Shown: one piece after another, positions 1 to 12,007 of the stretch
How positions within the stretch are numbered: position 1 is the first letter of the stretch
Layout: every line of letters begins with the position of its first letter
Assembly: GCA_900617975.1 (NCBI GenBank)
Contig: UZAE01012223.1
Coordinates: forward strand, 20,169-51,663
DNA length: 31,495 nt
DNA from: Rodentolepis nana
Lineage: Eukaryota > Platyhelminthes > Cestoda > Cyclophyllidea > Hymenolepididae
Direction: 5' to 3'
Program-made: the position numbers and the translations under genes
The notes under the pieces: generated by a model
Told to the model about the DNA's origin: nothing
The model's input: the letters and a program-made list of their open reading frames with translations, nothing else
The model's database searches: none

Positions 1-682
1 AACAAGGATAGTCAGTTATTTTGCGGCGAGTATGCTCACTGATGTCGCTTGAAGCCAAGAGTAAATCAGGAGTTGTTCTGGATCCATTGTAGTGCAAATA
101 TGTAGCCGGATCCTCATTGCTGTAAATAAGTTCCAGAGTGTTGCTGTTTAGAATGTCTTCAATTTCCTTTCCAGCTATGTTTGTATCCTTGTAGCCCCAT
201 CTGGTGGAGTGGGCGTTGAAGTCTCCTAATACTATGGTTTTGTGTGAGATGTTCAGAAAGTCAAAGTTTGAACAATTCTGGGGAGGATTATAGACTGCAT
301 ATATCTTGAATTGGTTTTGACATTTCCAAACATTTAATCTGATTATTTCACATTTGTCTTGTGTCGAGCCCATACTCTTGATTAGGTCGTAGTGTGAGGT
401 TAGGCCATCTTTTACTCCAGTTAGAATTCCACTTGCAACTTGGCGGTATTTAGGTAGATTGTACAGGGTGTAACCTGGGAATTGGTAATACTTCAGTTTG
501 TCATCCGAAATGTTAGCTTCCATAATTGTGAAAATGTCTACATCATAGGTTTGCAGGATTTTCTGTATTTGGATCTTTTTGTCCGGAGACATTCCTCCAG
601 CATTCCACTGGAAGATCTGAAGACGCTGTGATTCGCCCTGACGAGGGTGATTTTTCTTATAGCCTTTTTTAAAGCTAATCAT
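1..682 (-). CDS. LINE ORF, endonuclease (EEP) domain, 3' part outside window
   Basis: This is the apurinic-like endonuclease that nicks target DNA to prime reverse transcription of a non-LTR retrotransposon. The frame is open for 227 codons from ATG at 682 to the window edge with no stop or frameshift, so the copy may be young. Motifs seen: QWNAGG at residues 25-30, the catalytic Glu in TIMEAN (E55), VYNPP at 130-134, LGDFNAH at 152-158 (D154, N156) followed by RWG, and TTPDLLLAS from 203 (D206). These match the exonuclease-endonuclease-phosphatase fold of LINE ORF2 proteins. The final histidine motif and the reverse transcriptase would lie to the left of base 1. A basic N-terminal stretch of about 20 residues precedes the domain. 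Confidence 0.9.
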   Translation of the reverse strand, partial: MISFKKGYKKNHPRQGESQRLQIFQWNAGGMSPDKKIQIQKILQTYDVDIFTIMEANISDDKLKYYQFPGYTLYNLPKYRQVASGILTGVKDGLTSHYDLIKSMGSTQDKCEIIRLNVWKCQNQFKIYAVYNPPQNCSNFDFLNISHKTIVLGDFNAHSTRWGYKDTNIAGKEIEDILNSNTLELIYSNEDPATYLHYNGSRTTPDLLLASSDISEHTRRKITDYPC

Positions 683-787
683 GATAAATCTAAGTCAAAT
701 CAAATGCCGATTGATAGACTTTTTTGCCGTAAGAAAATACGTTGTCTAGGGCGCACCACGTGGAGGTAAGTCTATCGCGCACCCCCA
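1..787 (-). mobile_element. 5' end of a non-LTR (LINE) retrotransposon, runs off the left edge
   Basis: A minus-strand ORF encoding an endonuclease domain is preceded by a leader of about 105 nt. The leader starts near 787 with a GGGGGTGCGCGATAGACTTA-type sequence. The same start sequence opens the short elements at 5064 and 11992, where target-site duplications prove the boundary, so I take 787 as the true 5' end. The endonuclease ORF starts right after the leader with no separate gag-like ORF1 in between, suggesting a single-ORF element, although loss of ORF1 in this copy is possible. The reverse transcriptase and 3' tail lie outside the window, so the clade cannot be fixed; the endonuclease reads most like the jockey/I group. 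Confidence 0.85.
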
Positions 788-1530
788 GGCTAATGATAAA
801 TATCAAAATAAATGACTATAATTAGTCAACCAATACTATCAATCTGAAATCGCCACGTCATATTCCTCAATATTTGTGCACTTCTAATGCCCGCCAAAGA
901 TAACCTTGCCTTCCAATTCCTCTTATTTGGTTAAAATCTAGTAAAGACATTTCATACATACTCGATTCTGCATCATTACTGACACAGTTTTAAGCAGTTG
1001 AATAACGGCATTCCAGTTGCTGAATACTTTGATTCAGTCACTAAAAAACAACCTGAATACTTCCATGCAATAGTCTATGATTATCTAATAGTTCAATCCT
1101 TCTGAAAATCTCTTCAGTCATATTTCATATTTTGTTTCCTGTAAGAAATAGAACTTATTATTATTCATATTATTACTATTATTATTATCGATTAAGTTTA
1201 GATAAAACAACCGGTGGCACGGTGTTAGAGATGTATACCATGTGAAAATTTCAGAAATAGCAGTGGTTTATAAAGTTTCCTGTAATTATGCGATGTTTTT
1301 TAGAATTTAGAAATTCTAAATGTCTAATTTTGGGCGTTTTCTTATAGATTTTCTTTGAAACCGTAAGTTTTGCATCTATTCTTAGAGAAAATTCAACTTT
1401 TCTAAATTTTATCCCGATCACATCAAACGGAAAATCGTTTCCTTTTGAAGAATCGATTATTTGGAGTGATAGACTACGACACATTAATTACACTTTTAGA
1501 TCATGATTGACTTATAACGCTGTAGCGGTT
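788..1530. other. non-coding AT-rich flank, no gene seen
   Basis: No ORF with protein-like composition was found. A short ATT/TTA-type simple repeat lies at about 1157-1190. A 77-codon minus-strand frame at 1251-1484 has no recognisable motif and is taken as chance. Confidence 0.5.
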
Positions 1531-1534
1531 TGCT

Positions 1535-1745
1535 ACCTTAGTAAGGCCTGACCGACTCAGCAATCTCTATGGCTGATTCTCCAACATCTAGCTAGACTCC
1601 CAGAACCAGCTAAGAATTCTCCAACATCTAGCTAGACTCCCAGAACAAGCTAAGCTATCGAACCAGCTAAGCTATAGCCCAGCTATAAAGGAAACAGACC
1701 GAAACTAGCTAAGCTATAGCCCAGCTATAAAGGAAACAGACGATA
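1535..1745. repeat. tandem repeats built on a dispersed repeat
   Basis: Two different units are each present twice. A ~40-bp unit containing ctagctagactcccagaac lies at about 1576-1656. A ~42-bp unit containing gctatagcccagctataaag, followed by gaaacaga, lies at about 1661-1742. Single copies of the same sequence occur at 7705-7800, 13290-13440 (inverted) and 17850-17965, so this looks like local amplification of a dispersed repeat. Confidence 0.8.
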
Positions 1746-1796
1746 ATTCGGAACACGTATATTCAGTCACGTAATGATCAGAAAAGTGTGCACGGA

Positions 1797-1971
1797 GCAC
1801 GTTTATTCAGGACGTATCTTGCGGATCAAGTCACGTTTATTCAGGACGTATATTGCGGATCAAGTGTACCCGCTTATTCAGGACGTATATTGCGGATCAA
1901 GTGTGTACACACAGAGTATATTGTGGATAAAGTGCACACGCAGCGAGTATATTGCGGATTAAGTGCAGGCA
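1797..1971. repeat. imperfect 31-37 bp tandem array, about five units
   Basis: Each unit contains ttcaggacgtatattgcgga or a variant ending in gagtatattgcggat, followed by caagt or taagt. Unit starts are about 1803, 1837, 1874, 1914 and 1945. The first three are close copies and the last two have diverged. The overlapping short plus-strand ORFs are translations of this array and are not considered genes. Confidence 0.85.
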
Positions 1972-2169
1972 TGCGATGACGTGTCCCACAATGCGTTTGT
2001 TTTATTGCAACCCCATGTTTTGTATTTTCGATTTGCTATTAGTATTTTTACTTTCGATATCTTCAGCCATTACCTTATATCCATTGCTTTCACCTCCCGT
2101 GGCATCTCTAAAGGTATATAGGTCAATAGCTCACTATTTCCTTGAATTTGTGCAATTCTTCATGTGATG

Positions 2170-3155
2170 TAAAAATGAAATAATAATTCCGTAGTTGTAG
2201 GAGTAGAAATGACATTCACCTGACTTTATTTATAGGCATTGACTGCGACGGAAATTGGAGAAGATCGGGTTTCTATAACTAAGTGCACTAAAAGTGGACA
2301 AACAGTGGCATTGATGCTTAACTTCTTGCAATTTATACACCCTCGGTCAGTTTCAGCTCATTTCAATTACAATATTGTCGACATATGTGCACTTTGAACT
2401 TGTAATTTACTGGAATTAATTAAAGCGTCTTTTTCTCAAAGAACTCTAATTAAAATTTACAACACTTTTACTTTAATAGGAATACGAACACTTATTTGAC
2501 TTCTTTGCAAACTCTATCAATGTTCTATACAGTAAAATGTGCTAATTTTGTAAGTGAAAGTCACATTTGATATCCTAATTTCTTTACGCAAGGCAGCCTT
2601 TTATTAAATGAAGCTATCAAACTTAACTCTAATAACCCCTCTTAACATTATTTAGTAGTTTAACTTTAACTAATATAAATGGAAATAATGCGAAAAACGA
2701 TGACCAAGAAGTAGATTAAAATAAAAAATAAAAAATTATCATTATCTCTTTACCTGGAATAGCAAGTTATCTGCAAGTTCTTTTACTAATGATGTTTTTG
2801 TTTAATTGAATAAATGACACTACGCATGGTAATTATCATAAACTTGATATTTAATAATATTATACATCGGTTCTTCGTTTTTCGCATCATTTCCAAGACA
2901 CCATAGAAGTGAATTAAAATAATAAACCTTATTTCCTTGCCAATGTGCATTGCATAGACCATCATAAATTAGATTGATTAATTGAAGTATTTTAAACTCC
3001 AACTGTGCCCTTCATACTCTAAAATGAGCCAATTGATGTCCACGTTTCTGGATAAAAACGATCTTAATTCTAGCGAAACTTGCTACCAAACGAGGTAGTG
3101 ATGCAATGGGAATCAGCTATATGCATTGATAAAAACTATGGGACCCAGAGTTACA
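2170..3155. other. AT-rich non-coding stretch
   Basis: I see no gene. Around 2760-2860 there is weak resemblance to 14450-14580 (shared tttacct, taatgat and tggtaatt-tcataa blocks), which may be an old part of the neighbouring duplication. Confidence 0.4.
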
Positions 3156-4730
3156 TGAAACAGTAGTCGGCATTAAGGTGACGAAAACGGTTTTCATGTT
3201 GTTAAAAATGTCCACATCGGATTCACAGGGAAGCCTTGTTAAGAGCAACTGAGTATGTCACAATTAAAACGATTGGCGTCTTGGTCTTCGATGATATTTA
3301 GATAAGATAGAGATTAATTCTTATTAAGCTCACGCATCGAATATACACATCTATAAGTCTGAATAACTAAGTCTTAGTGTAATACAGTGCTATAGCATGC
3401 AAATAAAACGATCACACACAATGAAATCGTATTGTAGATTTTGTCAATTTGTCCCTGTAGAGGACATTCAACGTCGGTTTCACTCCTCTTACTATCCATG
3501 TTTTCATAAACCCACCAATCACTCCAATTCATTACATGGTGTTGTGGGGAAAACAGTGAGACACAAAACGTCAAGCGCTCACTGCAATAATCTCACTTAC
3601 ACATACACGAAAATGGTTAATTTATTTTCCGCCTCACAAATTGATAAAAAATTGAGTTCACCTAGAATGTGACACACTTTAATTCGCAATCATACAACTG
3701 ACTTGATTTGCATAGCCACACCTTGATTGCTACAATATGGCATGATATTTCAATGCCTCTATTAGAGGCACATGTCATCGACACCTGCTCAGTCTGCTCC
3801 CAGTTCGCCTGGAGAATTTCATAAATGCACATACAATAAATGGCGCATATCTGGTGAAGTGTGCTTCACTACTTATTGCACACTATTAGGCGAAATTTCA
3901 CCACCAAAAAATCGACTGTCTTTATCTTCACTCCAATCAATCAATGTTATTCTGTAACAGTTTAATACTATTTTATTCTGAAACATCCTCTCTGCAATAG
4001 CTACATTATTTCATTTAAGATAAATAATGGGAAATTTACTCTAAAATTCACCCCCAGCCCTTTCATATGTCTTTCAACGCATTATATCAATCCATCTAAC
4101 AAAACTTTACTCAAGATGGTATCTCAAAGTATTTTCAATTAAAAAATATTAAGCTGCTTCTTAAAGTTGGTACTCCTACTCTAAGAAAAATGTATATCTT
4201 GGCTTAGTAAAAAAACAATGAGATCATGTCATTAACGGGTTAATTATATATAGCTCACAGATTGCAATCATCTTAACCAAATCAAGATCCATAAATTCAA
4301 GTTCACTGAACATAAATTCCAAAACAGTATTTAAAAGTACTGCTATTTAAATTTATAGTAGTGTAAGTATTCTATGCAAGAGAAGAATGGGTTCAAAGTT
4401 CTAACGCCAATGGATCAATACTGTCAAATCAGGTGTTTCTTTCGAAGTGGCATGCATTAGATTTGAGTTAACAGAGCTCAGTGTGGTTTTTTTCCTTCTT
4501 TCACCATTTGTATTCCTTTGAAGAAAATCTTCTAGTAATGCAATCAAATTGCCTAACATCTGAGAAATTTTTATCTCCATCAAGTGGTGAGAACAATCGC
4601 ACATCGATTAGCTTTGAAAACTATCTTTCAAAAGTGGTGCTGGTTGATGGTTGCGGATTGCATTTCATGCACAGATGTATTGAGAATCGAGTTAGATCCC
4701 AAAAATTTTTGAAGCGCAAAGAAATCGATG

Positions 4731-5075
4731 AACTTAAAAATTTATTTATTTATATCAAATGGCAGGCGTCTTGATGAATATCAATAGCCCTTTAGTTGAC
4801 TTCAGGCTTCACAGAGGGGAAGAAATATCAAATTGAAAAAGTCGATAGGGGGGTGGGGGAAAGAAGTATTTCAAAGATGTAAGAGACAAACACAAAGGTA
4901 GAACAAAGGTGAGGTGAGTACTATGGAAATATTCCAAAATGGTAGAGTGAGGTGATGGTAGTTTGAAGTGACAAGTCAACTGTCAGTCAATAGACGTTTT
5001 TGCCCTATGAATATACGTTGCCCAGGGTGCACCACGTGGAGGTAAGTCTATCGCACACCCCAAAAACTTAAAAAT
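4731..5075 (-). mobile_element. short retroelement (SIDE-like) with 11-bp target-site duplication
   Basis: The element body is 4742-5064, flanked by the direct repeat aacttaaaaat (4731-4741 and 5065-5075). Read on the minus strand it starts GGGGTGTGCGATAGACTTAC. It stays similar to the 5' end of the LINE at 787 for about 80 nt, then has a body found only in the other two short elements, and ends in an ATAAATAAATAA tail. No coding capacity was found. It lacks the tRNA head of the element at 5607. The ends and tail indicate target-primed retrotransposition. Confidence 0.85.
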
Positions 5076-5594
5076 AAATTCCACTTTATACTTCATTAGC
5101 ACACAATGGGTTTTACGTCAGTTTATTTTTAACTCGTTTGAAAATTTATGTGTCTCCTGTCCTCAATTCGTGCCCACACCGTTGTATTGGAATTGTAAAT
5201 AAAAGGGAAACGCCAATTATCGCAGTGGGCAAAATTTAACGATTGTCATGTAAACATCTGAAAAATTTAGCTGAAAGCAACTGTGAAACAGATGTTCGTG
5301 TGGGAGGAAGATGGAGTTTGATGCCGAAAGGAAAACTGCCTTCAAATAAGATAATTTGCTAAAATTGATTCACTTTTTCCTTTAAAATTCTGAGCAATTT
5401 CATGCTTATAAGTTACTTGTAACCAAAGATACAGGATGTATGCAAATTTCCTCGTCACTCTTATCAATAAAACAAGGCAGTCTAGTCTCGAAAAACTACT
5501 TCTTCTAGTTGCTTCAATTTCTTCATTCACTACACCGCCTAGAAACTGAATTCAAATGCGGTTCTTGAAAGATTAGTGATCCATACTACCTGAC

Positions 5595-6032
5595 AACTTT
5601 AATACAAAGAGTCCGGATTGCCCCGTCGGTAGAGCATCAAACTTTTAATCTGAGGGTCTAGGGTACGAGTCCCTGTTCGGGCGCCAGTGCACGAGGGTGT
5701 GTACACGCTCATCACGGGGTGTGATGGACTTATCTCCACGTGGTGCACCCTGGGCAACGTATTAACTGACAGTTGACTTCTCACTTCAAACTACCATCTC
5801 CTCACTCTATATCATATTCGACTATTCACAGTACTCACCTCACCTTTTTTGCTACTTTTGTGTTTGTCTCTTACATCTTTAAAACACTTTTCTGTCCCCC
5901 CCCCCTCTCGACTTTTTCACACTTTGATACTCCTTCCTCTCAGTGAAGCCTGAAGTTAACTAAAGGGCTAATGATAACTATCATGACGCCTACCATTTGA
6001 TATAAATAAATAATTAAATAAACTTTAATACA
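5595..6032 (+). mobile_element. tRNA-Lys-headed SINE with 12-bp target-site duplication
   Basis: The element spans 5607-6020, flanked by perfect aactttaataca repeats (5595-5606, 6021-6032). In order it has a tRNA-Lys-like head (5611-5683 plus CCA), a ~45-nt spacer, the same body as the elements at 4742-5064 and 11666-11992 starting near 5715 (ggggtgtgatggacttatct), a run of ten C at 5896-5905, a small hairpin at about 5968-5980, and an ATAAATAAATAATTAAATA tail. It lacks about 20 nt of the LINE-like leader that the two headless copies keep. The head provides a possible Pol III promoter. It is non-autonomous and presumably mobilised by a LINE. Confidence 0.9.
5611..5683 (+). tRNA. tRNA-Lys(UUU)-like head of the SINE, probably a pseudo-tRNA
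   Basis: The length (73 nt), acceptor stem gtccgga / ttcgggc, D arm, anticodon loop cttttaa (anticodon TTT at 5644-5646) and T arm (taggg tacgagt ccctg) follow animal tRNA-Lys. The genomic copy is followed directly by CCA (5684-5686), which nuclear tRNA genes do not encode. There are mismatches in the D stem and the anticodon stem. The B box ggtacgagtcc has one change from consensus and the A box is degraded. Its place inside a repeat with target-site duplications shows it is the SINE promoter module and not a housekeeping tRNA gene. Confidence 0.7.
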
Positions 6033-6189
6033 CTATTGAAACTTGATATCATATTGTCGATTTTGCGTAAGCGATCAATTTCTCAAGATATTAGAGATAA
6101 TTGGGCTGGGACCGTTTAAAAATACTAATGTATTCTCCTGCCACGAGCACGTGTATTGCATTTTGTCCTATCTGCCGTGTTTGGGAATA

Positions 6190-6950
6190 TGTCCGTTTGA
6201 CAAATTCCATTGTTCCTAATGGAATTCGTTGGTTGGTGGATATGATAAGAAATATATGAAATTGAGGTTGAAGAAAAAGAGATAAAAGAGAGAAACTGAG
6301 ATTCTTGGGAAGCAGTACACGTTCACAGTTCTGCTGTAGTTCTCATTGATGAAATATTCGAAAATAATGTTAGTGGCAGGAGAGATTATTTGGAAGACAA
6401 ATCGAATCCCCTGCTTTTCCAACGAAGTAGGAATGAGCTGACTAATACATTTCTTGCTAATAAAACTAAAGCAGGATGTATAGACGTTGCCCGTTGTTTT
6501 ATGAACATTTCGTGACTTGAACTAGTTATGAGTTAGTAACAATTTAATGCGCAATACATTCCAATGCTTCAATCTACTCTTATTGATACATTTGCAAAAA
6601 ATCGATTGAGAGTAAGTCTTTCACGCAGTAAACTATACCACATTAATCCATCTTTCATTTGTCGAATTCGGAGAATATTTTGTCAATATCGCATTTAAAT
6701 TGAACAATTTGGAAAATTTGATATACTAATCAGTTTACTGAGACTTTTTAGCAAACGAAACAATTCCATTTGTCTGATCCAAATTACATTATGCCGAAAA
6801 TTGTGTTCAGTCTTACCTACCTATTTAATCTATTTTCCACTACCATTTTCATTCACCTTGCGCCTTTAAACAACATCCACAGTCACAAAGTGACCTACTT
6901 AGTTATGTTAACAAGTCTACTCTATGAATCTAGTGGGAACGTTTTCGACA
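6190..6950. other. AT-rich spacer, no gene supported
   Basis: The frames at 6216-6422 (minus) and 6770-7018 (plus) have no recognisable domains. The latter overlaps sequence conserved in inverted form downstream of the gene at 13702, which favours non-coding 3' flank. Confidence 0.4.
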
Positions 6951-7131
6951 ACGCTAAAATCATGAAACTTAAAGAGGAAAATGAAGAACCCGTTAAACGG
7001 CATAAATCAAAATGTTGACAAATTAAGACAAAATTGATGAAATCAATAATAGAAAAACAATGAATTGAGCTGAAAATTACAAATTTATTGTTTAAAATAG
7101 AAGCAAATATTGTGAAAGATTAGGGAACAAA

Positions 7132-7479
7132 CTAGACTTTCAAAATCAAGGAAAATAGGAAGGAAAGAGCCGAAACAGCGAGATAAGGAGTAATGGTGTT
7201 AGATGCTGAAGTGGTTGTTTTTGGTGGAACGTTCTGATTGCCATCACCTCCTCCACCGCCATTTTGGTCACCACCTGTACCACCTCCACTGTCACCACCA
7301 CCACCACCTGTACCACCTCCACTGTCACCACCATCACCACCTGTGCCACCACTTCCATTATCACTTCCATCACTACCTCCACCACCATCTCCGCCTTCAT
7401 CTTGGCCCTGTGCCTTCGATGCCATCGTTATCAGGGCCGTCAAAAACAGCAAAGCGAAAATGAGGCTCTGAGTTCTCAT
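7132..7479 (-). CDS. small secreted Gly/Asp-rich protein with predicted GPI anchor (copy 1)
   Basis: The 115-residue, intronless ORF begins with a signal peptide (MRTQSLIFALLFLTALITM..., likely cut near AQGQ, residues 23-26). Next comes a stretch of about 55 residues made almost only of Gly, Asp, Ser, Asn and Thr, then NVPPKTTTSASN, and a C-terminal hydrophobic tail of about 20 residues without a charged residue until the final Lys-Val. Signal peptide, Ser/Asn-rich spacer and hydrophobic tail together are the hallmark of a GPI-anchored surface protein. One N-glycosylation sequon (NGS) and no cysteine are seen. The gene has a TATA box, a poly(A) signal (AATAAA, minus strand, 7084-7089) and an inverted paralogue at 13702-14043 with nearly identical ends. 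I do not recognise a family; a tegument or larval surface coat protein is an inference. Confidence 0.8.
   Translation of the reverse strand: MRTQSLIFALLFLTALITMASKAQGQDEGGDGGGGSDGSDNGSGGTGGDGGDSGGGTGGGGGDSGGGTGGDQNGGGGGDGNQNVPPKTTTSASNTITPYLAVSALSFLFSLILKV
7290..7372 (-). repeat. coding minisatellite inside the Gly/Asp-rich gene
   Basis: Units of about 27-33 bp (on the plus strand: ccacctgtaccacctccact then gtcaccacc...) encode repeated GGDSGGGTGG blocks. The paralogue at 13702 has a different arrangement here, while both protein ends are conserved, so this tract changes in length by slippage. Confidence 0.75.
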
Positions 7480-7521
7480 TGCGTTCGCTGATGTGTACTC
7501 ATGAACTCCAAAGAGCCTCTT

Positions 7522-7529
7522 CTTTTATA
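7522..7529 (-). promoter_or_regulatory. TATA box of the gene at 7132-7479
   Basis: The sequence tataaaag on the minus strand lies 42 nt before the ATG and is followed by gaagaggctctttggagttc. The same sequence and spacing precede the paralogue at 13702, and the homology continues upstream for hundreds of bases. A transcription start about 30 nt downstream would leave a 5' leader of only about 15-20 nt. Confidence 0.7.
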
Positions 7530-7704
7530 CCTAACGATCATGTGGGCTACATCTTTGTTGTGGTTTTCTAATGCATGATTGGCTTTGAGGCTCAACCTAC
7601 TTTACCTTCATGAAGTTGTTTACGATATACGAAACGAAGTTTTTAGTAATCATACGCCAATTATTCAGCAAATTTACGTTTTTATAAAATATGCAGTGGA
7701 TTTC

Positions 7705-7800
7705 TACATTAATAAAGCCTTGACTGACTCAGAAGTCTCTGTGGCTGAATTTCCTTTATCTAGCTAGACTCCCAGAACTGGCTAAACCACAGTCCGCGTT
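7705..7800 (+). repeat. dispersed repeat copy (ctagctagactcccagaac family)
   Basis: This is a single copy of the sequence amplified at 1535-1745, starting near aataaagccttgactgactc and running through tagctagactcccagaactg. It lies about 180-280 bp upstream of the TATA box of the gene at 7132. The paralogue carries it at the same relative position, so here it travelled with the duplicated gene. Confidence 0.7.
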
Positions 7801-10800
7801 TATTTTATATTCGTGTAATTTGTAGCAATACAAAATGCTTCATTTCTGACGAAACCTTGATTACAATTTTAACTTTCCTAAAGTTTTTCATTACATGAAT
7901 GTGTAAAGAAAGTAAACTGCATCATTACTGGATACTGCTGATTGATGCTCTATGCAGAAGGTAATCATCATTGCCATCTTAAAAAAATGGGTATCGAAAG
8001 TGCCCACAATAATAATATGAAAGTATTCTCCTCTGTATGTCTCATTCCTGTCTCAGTAATTGTGATTTTGTCCCTCTTCCCATGTGTGAAACCGGTTTTC
8101 CATTCTTCCCTTACCTATTACGATGTCTCATAAGACAATCTTGAAATTAAATCGCCTCTTCTTGACTAAGGTACAAATCAGTAGCATATTCTAGCATTTA
8201 TTTCCAATTATGCATAGTTGTCTTAACACACTTAAGTGGCAGAGCACTCGTTCCAGGATGGTCTTTCCTATGAAGCCCTTGATGTGAAAACGTGTGAAGT
8301 GTACTGGTGTGCAGTGAAAGGCGGAAGCTGATGAAGTAGCGCGAATGGAAACGTGTCAGCATGGAAAGCATTTAACCATGTCAACTAGTTGAAATGCAGA
8401 ATACATTGAGCAGGTATTAAGTATAAATCACTTATATTTATATTGCATCATTAATAACATTTTGTGGTCTTTACTTCAAGCAAAAAATGATTATCATGTT
8501 GTTGTGGAAATTGTCCACACCGGTATCACAGAGAAGCCATGATAAGTCCAACTGAGTAGGTCACTTTCAAAACAATGGCAGACTCGACTTCGATGATGCT
8601 GAAAGATGAATGAAAGTGTTATAAAGATCTGTCTATGCATCTCGTACATACTGGGAACACTAAAAAGATTACACGCAATGAATATTTACAGTCATTGAAA
8701 TCGCATTGCGGTTTTTTATTGGTCCTTGTGGAAGTCAGTTATCAATTTTGCACCCAATGTCCGTTTCACTTATTTAACTAGCCGTGTTTTCATAAACCCA
8801 CCAAAACACTCCAAATTGTTACTTGAGATTGTGGGAAAAACAACTAGGCACAAAATAACACGCATTCACCGCAGTAATATCATTTTCACTTGCTCACGAA
8901 AAAAGGAAATCATTGTTTTTTTCTCACAGATTGATTGAAAGTGGAGTCCACTTGAAATCTGTTATAATTCAATTGACGATTACGCAATCTATTTAAGTGT
9001 TGCTCTGTGGAAAGTTCCACTGTGCTTGGAGGATTTCATGACTTATTGCAAAATAAATGGAGTTTATCCAGTGAAGTGTTCTCCAACATTTATCGCTATG
9101 TAATTATAGGACTTTTAGTGCTTATGTATTTCATATTTTGTGCAATTATTTTGGAATGGGACTTTGGGGTTAAAAATGTGCTAGTTTTGGTGAATTTCAT
9201 GACTTTACCTAAAGTAAATAGAGAATATTGAGTGAAGTGTGCACGCTACTTAGGGGGTGCTTATCAGCAGAAAATTAGCTGTATTTATCTCTTATCACTG
9301 CTTATATTTGGATATTAGTTCTGTATTTCCCTGTGGTAATTTATTAGTGTCCTTAAACAGCACAGTTCGAAGGATTTACTCAGCTGTTTTTATACGTTGC
9401 ATAAATTCAAGCCAACTGTTTAAGCTTGTTTAACCTCATACTATTAGAGAGTTTTGTCATTTGAGGAATTAACCGTTAACTAATTTAAATTATGCCAACT
9501 ATCAGAGGTGTTAAATAAGTTGGCGGTCAATGCTCAGAGTCAAGTGTTGTAGGAAATAGAGGAAGAGATTCATAACCCTCTCTCAGACTTCCATAGACCT
9601 GCAAAATATATAGTAATGATTGACTGATTTCAAAAGGAATTCTTCCATGGCACGGCCTCAAAGAATGGGTGGTTCAAAGGTCATACGTTTGGGGGTTGGA
9701 GAGTTGTGTGAATTGACACGAGTGATTCTGCATGTATATTTTTGACTAGATGCGTTTGATGCATTGGTAACATTCTGCTGATCGTACAAATTGCACTGCT
9801 GATTACGTTGAATAGCCTTTTTTGTCTAAGGTCTATGAGGCTGATTTATGACAGTTAAGACTATTAATAGTGATAAGTAAAAAAATTTACTTTGTCTCAC
9901 AGAAAGTCGTTTGTCTTAGAGCAATTGGGGAACGATTTCTTTCAAATTCTGTACTTATACTGAAACAACGTCGTAGCAGTGTTGATTAATAAGTACATGT
10001 TCTATGATTACTTGATAATTGTTTGACAGTGACTATAATGTCCTCCACAAGTTTGTATATATCTAACGCAAATTTTCAAGTATCAGTTCTTGAAGAAAAA
10101 CTCCCAGTAATGCAATCAATTTGAATTGAACCTGCGATATTTTTGCCTCCATCAGGTGCAGACTGTCTTTCAAGCGCAGGCGTTTTGCGAATTGAGTTGG
10201 AATTCAGAAGTAGTTGAAACACGACAAAATCAACGAGTTTGAAAATGAATTTAGCCAAGTACTTCATTACTACACATTGGGTGTTGAATCAGTTAAATAT
10301 TAACTCGGTTGATGAGTTCATTGCATGCTGGCTATTTATTGGGATATGGGTCTTTAATTTGTGTTCCATAACTGTATTGAAATAATAAAAGAAACGCAAA
10401 TCTCAATCTTTAGGCAAGTGCTAGACGGTTATTCGGGGTGAAGGAAGATGAAGTTTGTTACCACAGACGTAGACGGTCTTCAAACAGGCCATATAGTAAA
10501 CGTTATTCCTTGTTTCCTTTACAATTCGGAACAACTTCCGGATTATAGGCTTCTTTCAACCAATGATGTTGACAGTACATCCATTGCCTCTCGATTTACT
10601 ACTTTTCATGGAAAATGAACTTAAGTGCCTTTCTTCTAGCCCAGTCAACCAATTTCATGTAACGTTTGGTAGGAACAGTCATAAACCTTCAAGAACAGCT
10701 CTACCGAATATTAGTAATTTCGCGTTCATCATAACTTATCCGAGGGAAATGACTTCATGAAAGAAGACTGCAAAGATTTTTCCAGGAATCTCTAACAGAA

Positions 10801-11399
10801 TCTTCATTTTCATAGGTTAATCCCTTCTACAACTCTCTCGCGTTTGTTTGTACTTCTTGGAACAAATGCAGACTTAAATTTTGGAAAATTCATCACGATT
10901 TCAACCCACTAACTCGCAATTGTCATATTCTTATGCTGAGTATAATTTAAAAGGAAGACACAATGGAAATGTCTCTTGAAGAGGCCTCTGCTAATAGGAG
11001 TAATGGTATGTCTAATAATTTAGAGAAATTAATAGCATCAGATTGTGGGATGATTTGGTATTCCTGCTTCAAAGGCACTACTGGATGACAGTAAATTCTT
11101 CCTCGCCTTTCATTCGTAATACTTTATTTCTCCTTGTTTGCATATGTGTTTATTTCGCGGGAAAATCTCCTTCTAGGGTCGCTGTCTTCTATCCACGTGG
11201 ATGCCAATTATGTGGAGGTTGGATGATTGATGATTCACACTACCTTACCACTTTAAAACTCGCTTGAAGTTTAATGCCGAATTGTCAAAAATGCGTGTGA
11301 GCGTTCAAAATCTCACGACATTAGAGATGATTGGTCTGAACCGTGTTAATATTAATGTGTTCTTCCGTCATGAACACATATATTGCACAATTTTAAATT

Positions 11400-11650
11400 T
11401 TAATTTTTAGAATAGTTTTGTGTGTAGGAACTGTTATAGATAGCCTAGTGAGTTTTACTAATTATGATATCACTCCATCATCTAACTCTATCTAAGCGCT
11501 CGTAAGCTTAAATCGAAGTGTTGTCTGTGATATGCCCTACCTTTCTGCTTAGCCAATCAAGGTCACATTGTAGTTCTGCTCATGGCTCTGGTCTGTGTTA
11601 CGAGAGGCAGCGATTAGTACTAACTTTCATTTATGGTGCTTACCATGTCT
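11400..11650. other. non-coding spacer
   Basis: No coding sequence was recognised. It is the left flank of the retroelement insertion at 11666, whose target-site duplication starts at 11651. Confidence 0.4.
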
Positions 11651-12007
11651 TAAAAGATGTGATGTATTATTTATTTATATCAAATGCCAGGCGTTGTGAA
11701 AATTATCATTAGTCCTTTAGTTGATATCAGACTTCACAGATGGGAAGGAACATCAAAGTGAAACAAGTCGAGAGGGAGAGGGGGAACAGAAGAGAGATTC
11801 AAAGATGTAAAAGAGGCAGGCACAAAAGTGGAAAAAGGTGAGGCGAGTACTGTGAAAGTAGTCGAATGTGACATACAATGGGGTGAGGGTAGTTTGAAGT
11901 CAGAAGCCAACTGCCAGTTAAATGACTTTTTTGTCGTATGAGTTTACGTTGCCCAGGGTGCTCCACGTGGAGGTAAGTCTATCGCACACCCCTAAAAGAT
12001 GTGATGT
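11651..12007 (-). mobile_element. short retroelement (SIDE-like) with 15-bp target-site duplication
   Basis: The body is 11666-11992 with perfect flanking repeats taaaagatgtgatgt (11651-11665, 11993-12007). On the minus strand it begins GGGGTGTGCGATAGACTTAC, continues like the LINE 5' end at 787 for about 80 nt, and ends in an ATATAAATAAATAAT tail. It has the same layout as the element at 4742-5064, starts at the same base and has no tRNA head. It is non-coding. Confidence 0.88.

Follow-up and report, generated by a model that had tools for sequence, protein, structure and literature searches.

Short retroelements sharing both ends with a LINE and joined to tRNA, 5S and U6 heads in the tapeworm Rodentolepis nana

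Results

The stretch of DNA analysed here, hereafter the window, comprises 31,495 nt of the genome of the tapeworm Rodentolepis nana (contig UZAE01012223.1; C2421:20169-51663), and genome counts cover the 107-Mb assembly. The window contains the 5' part of a long interspersed nuclear element (LINE) and three copies of a short interspersed nuclear element (SINE), one of which is preceded by a tRNA-Lys-like head. Most probably, the short element is a non-autonomous, ribozyme-bearing element with the plan of a short internally deleted element (SIDE) that is moved by its partner LINE and gains RNA polymerase III (Pol III) heads by template jumping of the reverse transcriptase. Heads of this kind recur across the genome, and the tRNA-Lys head of the window is one of them. 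The ribozyme and the generality of the heads, which include 5S RNA, U6 RNA and many tRNA isotypes, go beyond an initial annotation of the window.

A ribozyme-like 5' end common to LINE and SINE

The start of ~80 nt that the initial annotation had described as common to the LINE and the short elements is real. It contains an exact 28-nt core with 4346 genomic occurrences (2201+2145, LINE copies included) and 0 in the reversed control, so the sharing is not due to chance. Judged from its sequence, this segment looks like a hepatitis delta virus (HDV)-like ribozyme that is presumably self-cleaving. The predicted fold starts at the 5' end of the element (GGGGTGTGCGATAGACTTACCTCC...) and consists of P1 (nt 1-7/32-38, with a G-U as its first pair), P2 (10-17/66-73), P3 (19-21/29-31), P1.1 (23-24/39-40) and P4 (45-49/54-58), with a C in J4/2. 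This C, the UCC loop and the first G-U pair are features that we take to be hallmarks of HDV ribozymes.

RF02682 matches with E<=1 were obtained in 16/16 SINE loci and in 16/16 LINE loci scanned. Nine of the SINE loci score at or above gathering; none of the LINE loci does, the best of them reaching 43.5 bits with a gathering threshold of 44. Of 119 ribozymes found, 113 were aligned (excluded are L013:1606, L088:263, L016:398, L100, L118 and the overlapping L056:1550). Across these copies, 92.2% of the cells are paired in the five-helix fold, compared to 33-46% when the partners are slid. The C in J4/2 is kept in 22/22 headed and 88/91 other aligned rows. In the window, the ribozyme is located at 712..785 at the 5' end of the LINE (- strand; P1-P2-P3-P1.1-P4, from the alignment of copies), at 4988..5061 (- strand; alignment and pair counts) in the first headless SINE copy and at 11992-11919 (alignment) in the second one.

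The ends of the insertions agree with this prediction. A target-site duplication (TSD) with a score >=8 flanks 41 of 54 headless full-length copies; it stops precisely at the ribozyme's first G in 30 of these 41 and at most 2 nt away in 37. The genomic 5' end of the insertions thus coincides with the predicted cut site.

Tandem duplications of 40 nt that cover half of the ribozyme (CGATAGAC...CAACGTA or similar) were observed in the loci L129 (C12:64930-65270) and L130 (C10:26140-26320), which are unrelated and have about the same break point. Further core spacings of 40 and 80-81 nt are found on C26, C36, C53 and C83 among the matches listed.

Both ends of the LINE in the short element

SINE and LINE share ~81 nt at their 5' ends and ~68 nt at their 3' ends. 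The latter similarity is seen in L069, a LINE copy that internal deletion has shortened to about 755 nt, in which SINE consensus positions 254-321 align with LINE nt 687-755 at 85.7% identity. The 3' part of the SINE (AAGCCTGAAGTCAACTAAAGGGCTAATGATAACTATCA...ATTTGATATAAATAAATA) is the 3' end of the LINE, and in L062, L069 and L033 it stands behind the same LINE sequence. The 3' end that apparently belongs to the window LINE is found in locus L078 of the same contig, past a run of N at 8387-9998. The claim that only the LINE 5' end is shared therefore does not hold, because the 3' end is common as well.

The middle of the SINE, ~170 nt, was compared with 29 LINE copies over up to 1809 nt and matches nothing there except for a 12-nt chance match; it is therefore either foreign or derived from an unseen part of the LINE. 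Matching of the common body and tail to the LINE 3' end, proposed earlier as a check, is thus borne out for the ~68-nt 3' end, while the middle has no counterpart in the LINE sequence covered. The proposed origin as a non-autonomous family made from a LINE 5' leader, with a tRNA promoter gained by one copy, is supported as such, while a plain internal deletion does not explain the ~170-nt middle as far as the LINE sequence covered shows.

The element has a ribozyme-bearing SIDE-type plan rather than that of a classic SINE. tRNA-derived SINEs are recognised by a tRNA head, with A and B boxes, that runs through the whole family. Such a head is absent here, since headed copies are a small minority (34 tRNA matches versus 4346 exact ribozyme cores).

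Diversity of the Pol III heads

With the tRNA-Lys head as query, nine places were found in the genome, all of them with the element downstream, in L010 by way of a chain. To cover other tRNAs, the RF00005 model was applied; 63 of 6407 candidates were scored, which gave 54 matches, 53 of which were read (C4492:784 is unread). Sense SINE sequence lies downstream of 34 of the 53, mostly at a distance of 1-98 nt, and in 32 of the 34 the SINE begins within its first 30 nt. By chance, ~0.12 exact ribozyme cores would be expected this near in sense, a value that is few-fold higher when decayed copies are counted. The isotypes that carry the element include Lys, Val, Ala, Gly, Phe, Thr, Ser, His, Asn, Asp and Glu. 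In 17 of the 53 matches, no SINE or only a short 3' fragment is present. The remaining two stand head to head with the SINE 5' end, namely L100 (1-100, tRNA-Leu) and L118 (1-106, tRNA-Arg), an antisense arrangement as in tRNA/L1 chimeras (PMC13174262, in its accessible part).

Heads are not restricted to tRNAs. The genome has 39 matches to 5S RNA (RF00001) and seven to U6 RNA (RF00026). The element is present in six of seven 5S regions examined, five of them with a direct ribozyme joint (L127 with a short first piece) and one with the element after 24 nt. An exact search for the 5S-ribozyme joint pattern yielded seven places; three are outside the 39 RF00001 matches and one was already among the regions examined. 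Both U6 regions examined (2/2, of the seven matches) are joined directly to the element. The series ahead of the SINE in L010 consists of tRNA-Lys(TTT), 5S and a tRNA-Lys(CTT)-like stretch, the last assigned by eye. The joint partner in L120 resembles, by eye, a LINE-type 5' end. U2, a candidate donor transcribed by Pol II, has two matches in the genome.

In L128, the remaining one of the seven 5S regions, the end of the 5S sequence runs, by eye, into a 5' half of tRNA-Gly(GCC), followed by unrelated sequence, as would result from a jump to a tRNA fragment.

Joints, trailers and target-site duplications

A T-run, defined as >=3 consecutive T within the last 6 nt, precedes the element at 23/36 headed joints and in 10/58 headless copies (p=6e-6; the count excludes L124, L128 and five tRNA joints whose 5' end is not clear). 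Trailers of up to ~54 nt are kept at the joints. The donors look like unprocessed Pol III transcripts, and the joints tend to fall at the ends of primary transcripts.

For 27 headed copies, the TSD was sought both outside and inside the chimera; seven of the 34 were excluded because of contig ends or compound or truncated tails. When the 40 nt upstream of the tRNA are compared with the 3' flank, the mean is as high as observed in only 11 of 10000 permutations. The sequence right before the SINE, compared with the same 3' flank in the same copies, gives no signal (3136 and 9064 of 10000 permutations in two tests). An individually clear outside TSD (above 95% of the null) is found in the window (12 bp), in L022 (12 bp, tRNA-Val), in L109 (11 bp, tRNA-Asn) and in L011; inside, one of the 27 copies is individually clear in each of the two tests. 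As a set, the headed copies thus show what characterises template-jump chimeras: a TSD outside both parts and the 3' end of the donor at the joint.

L114 and L117, both included in this set, are tRNA-Glu plus SINE loci on one contig (C2417). Their upstream flanks are in common, so they probably arose by DNA duplication of one chimera and not by two jumps.

The headed copy of the window and a possible tRNA-Lys-headed lineage

In the window, the tRNA-Lys(TTT)-like head reported by the initial annotation is located at 5611..5683 (+ strand) and scores 38.1 bits with RF00005 (Infernal), whereas ARAGORN calls no tRNA in the window. Between the upstream TSD (AACTTTAATACA, 5595..5606) and the tRNA lies a short 5' leader (AAGA, 5607..5610, + strand). 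The tRNA is followed by a 3' trailer whose joint lacks a T-run (5684..5715, + strand), by the SIDE/SINE part (5716..6020, + strand; the consensus alignment spans 5716-6012) and by the second TSD copy (6021..6032), identical to the first at 12/12 positions. The ribozyme of this copy is damaged: 2 nt are lost after GGGGTGTG, and a deletion of ~24 nt comprises P4, J4/2 and the 3' strand of P2, so that fewer than 80 nt of the common leader are kept (alignment).

The copy L013 is closely comparable. It has the AAGAG leader and a 27-nt trailer stretch without T-run in common with the window copy, together with a 2-nt deletion and two substitutions, all within the first 21 nt of the ribozyme. The two-substitution pattern (ATGGACTTATC) occurs at 13 sites, and the twelve loci read include just two headed ones, the window copy and L013. 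The other ten loci (11 sites, as one locus holds two) are headless over ~119 nt upstream by eye, and none has this joint; the two bases are kept in nine of the ten, L137 being diverged there. The two copies differ in their flanks, which makes them separate insertions, and a 12-bp TSD of its own surrounds the window copy. They may therefore represent a tRNA-Lys-headed lineage that replicates as a unit after loss of the terminator at the joint and of the ribozyme, which would be compatible with an origin of the head by template jumping. However, no rare state is common to both copies across the other ~300 nt, and three such states are not exceptional, since 88/2701 pairs have >=3 in common. A T6 in the body of both could in addition halt Pol III short of the 3' end, and the lineage comprises two copies only. 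Given the missing further rare states and the T6, such a lineage is a serious possibility towards which we lean slightly less than towards its opposite.

A subfamily marked by ATGGACTTATC was also considered as the source of headed copies in general. It was rejected, as two of the twelve loci read are headed, namely the window copy and L013.

Alternative explanations and opposing evidence

TRE/Ty3-like elements insert beside Pol III genes, and the LINE and SINE might similarly target the T-run that immediately follows a genuine tRNA, 5S or U6 gene. This would account for the element lying downstream of 34/53 tRNA matches of many isotypes, mostly within 1-98 nt, and some headed tRNAs indeed score very high (75.4 bits), with scores not significantly below the others. 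Targeting predicts a TSD between trailer and element, however, where the permutations gave no signal, in contrast to the clear signal outside. Furthermore, the U6 sequence of L123 differs from that of L122 over the first ~15 nt (by eye), Pol III RNAs are strung head to tail in L010, and 5S is joined to half a tRNA-Gly in L128. Targeting is accordingly regarded as improbable.

Even less credible is that all elements stem from tRNA-headed sources, with the ribozyme removing the head from the Pol III transcript, so that headed copies would have escaped cleavage: the ribozymes of two headed copies (window, L013) are damaged as this would require, but the heads are diverse (tRNA isotypes, 5S, U6), the T-runs at the joints would end the transcript there, and the predicted excess of broken ribozymes in headed copies is not seen (intact in 15/22 headed and 67/91 other copies, p=0.60). 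This comparison excluded the headed copies L013, L088 and that of the window, which counted as broken give 15/25 (p=0.22), and headed copies too decayed to match are also outside the set. The related suggestion that the headless copies are SINEs that lost their head is disfavoured, because TSDs end at the first G in 30/41 headless copies and aligned headed ribozymes are as intact as the others.

Several results weigh against a ribozyme-bearing element that gains its heads by template jumping. The window itself has no ribozyme match at gathering. Of nine short joint loci scanned, five of which span just 111-113 nt and so truncate the ribozyme, RF02682 is below gathering in five, RF00094 alone matches in one (E=1.8) and three have no ribozyme match. 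Covariation in the ribozyme helices does not exceed that of shuffles in the 113 closely related sequences, as the copies are too alike; the structural claim therefore rests on the Rfam scores and the 5' ends. T-runs are missing at 13/36 joints, and 23/27 headed copies are without an individually clear outside TSD. Scores are not significantly reduced in headed tRNAs relative to SINE-free ones (p=0.16). In view of these TSDs and scores, some of the SINE-linked tRNAs could be genuine genes.

Further features of the window

The four elements are positioned as initially annotated, with the LINE extending on the - strand from 785 to the window edge and the SINEs at 5061-4743 and 11992-11668 (- strand) and 5716-6012 (+ strand). 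The three SINE copies are 84-90% identical to the family consensus. The 5' part of the LINE (1..785, - strand) begins with the G at 785 and runs off the window edge. A coding body had been claimed at 1-787, and a 227-aa open reading frame (ORF) with an Exo_endo_phos_2 domain (6.9e-16) was found. The two top protein matches of the endonuclease ORF (P0001) are 88% and 92% identical, both from R. nana. Another R. nana protein, P0010, has a 100% match in the assembly over 317 aa. An endonuclease of the spider Parasteatoda (P0023) has 49% identity with the tapeworm LINE across 94%. An older SINE copy seems to host the window LINE, as SINE-like flanks are visible by eye at window positions 788-815 and in L078 near 8225.

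The first headless SIDE/SINE copy (4743..5061, - strand) is 89.5% identical to the consensus over nt 1-321 and is flanked by a TSD at 4731..4740 (AACTTAAAAA, 3' side) and 5065..5074 (5' side). The second (11668..11992, - strand) is 87.5% identical and has a 15-bp TSD at 11651..11665 (TAAAAGATGTGATGT, 3' side) and 11993..12007 (5' side). All of these duplications were assigned by eye.

Apparently paralogous small Gly/Asn-rich proteins are encoded at 7160-7480 (- strand) of the window and at 4344-4640 (- strand) of L078 on the same contig. By eye, they have a signal-like N-terminus and a hydrophobic C-terminus.

Discussion

Template jumping by the LINE reverse transcriptase may proceed as follows. 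As suggested by its structure, the HDV-like ribozyme common to LINE and SINE would cut a read-through transcript at its first G and would thus set the 5' end of the element. The LINE protein would then recognise the common ~68-nt 3' end and copy the RNA at the nicked target. On reaching the 5' end of the RNA, the reverse transcriptase would sometimes jump onto a Pol III transcript that is still unprocessed, starting at its 3' end, a step that the genomic structure of the chimeras supports; donors would be pre-tRNA with trailer, 5S or U6, sometimes several in series. The whole chimera would finally be inserted, with the TSD outside. The tRNA-Lys head of the window probably arose by such a jump, directly or in an ancestor.

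Each of these ingredients is known: LINE/SINE pairs with ribozymes, SIDEs, jumps to tRNA and U12 (R2), to U6 (several LINEs) or to tRNA and other donors (L1), and double jumps. The closest counterpart is R2 of Drosophila, for which jumps from the RNA 5' end to tRNA-Lys, tRNA-Gly and U12 are described and a possible headed subfamily is discussed in the accessible part of the report (Eickbush and Eickbush 2012, PMC3414825). According to the same source, R2 SIDEs also combine a 5' HDV-like ribozyme with the LINE 3' end, but R2 is specific for ribosomal DNA, its tRNA-Lys donor is mature (CCA) and the cases are few. The tapeworm element, in contrast, has precursor-like donors with trailer, dozens of cases, dispersed insertion and a middle without a match in the LINE sequence covered. 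In trypanosomatids, Pr77 of L1Tc/ingi is an HDV-like ribozyme, and ~77 nt are common to the 5' ends of the LINE and its short partners; the host belongs to another phylum, and the accessible text does not mention Pol III chimeras (PMC4035085).

U6-L1 and U6-L2/SINE chimeras document a switch of template in which copying of LINE or SINE RNA continues on a Pol III RNA (Doucet 2015, PMC4476161); the portion available mentions no ribozyme, and the tapeworm adds pre-tRNA and 5S as donors. Human LINE-1 tRNA chimeras likewise have a tRNA joined to the LINE and the TSD outside, but as far as their description is accessible, they amount to 21 loci, typically with tRNA halves and predominantly antisense (PMC13174262), while the tapeworm heads are mostly full-length, sense and keep the trailer. 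Persaeus of Lepidoptera has the SIDE plan with a CR1 partner, and the word 'ribozyme' is absent from the available text (PMC6740152), which also cites a Dictyostelium 5S case. A double template jump like that of L010 is known from a tripartite chimera of Magnaporthe, with other donors and, in the part of the report at hand, one fungal and two mouse cases (PMC2104539). Relative to these systems, as far as their descriptions are accessible, what is new is the group of hosts, the range of donors and their precursor state, how many cases there are and that a head may be inherited.

No report of a ribozyme-bearing LINE/SINE element in tapeworms was found in the open-access literature, judged by the titles and abstract openings listed. 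The present data extend ribozyme-bearing LINE/SINE pairs to a tapeworm.

Finished families are the usual basis for arguments on how SINEs come to carry tRNA, 5S and other Pol III heads. This one genome shows dozens of such acquisitions, with donors that still have leader, trailer and terminator, which points to the capture of nascent precursors. For genome annotation, this implies a warning: since they carry the element, the tRNA (34/53), 5S (6/7) and U6 (2/2) regions concerned are probably retro-chimeras rather than genes.

More speculatively, the genome might be a nursery of newborn SINEs, in which the ribozyme-set 5' end drives repeated jumps of the LINE reverse transcriptase to primary Pol III transcripts and the lack of a terminator at the joint, together with the broken ribozyme, made the tRNA-Lys-headed lineage of the window copy and L013 heritable. 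We consider this rather doubtful. If true, the origin of a SINE head would be viewed directly in this tapeworm, and loss of the ribozyme would be the entry ticket.

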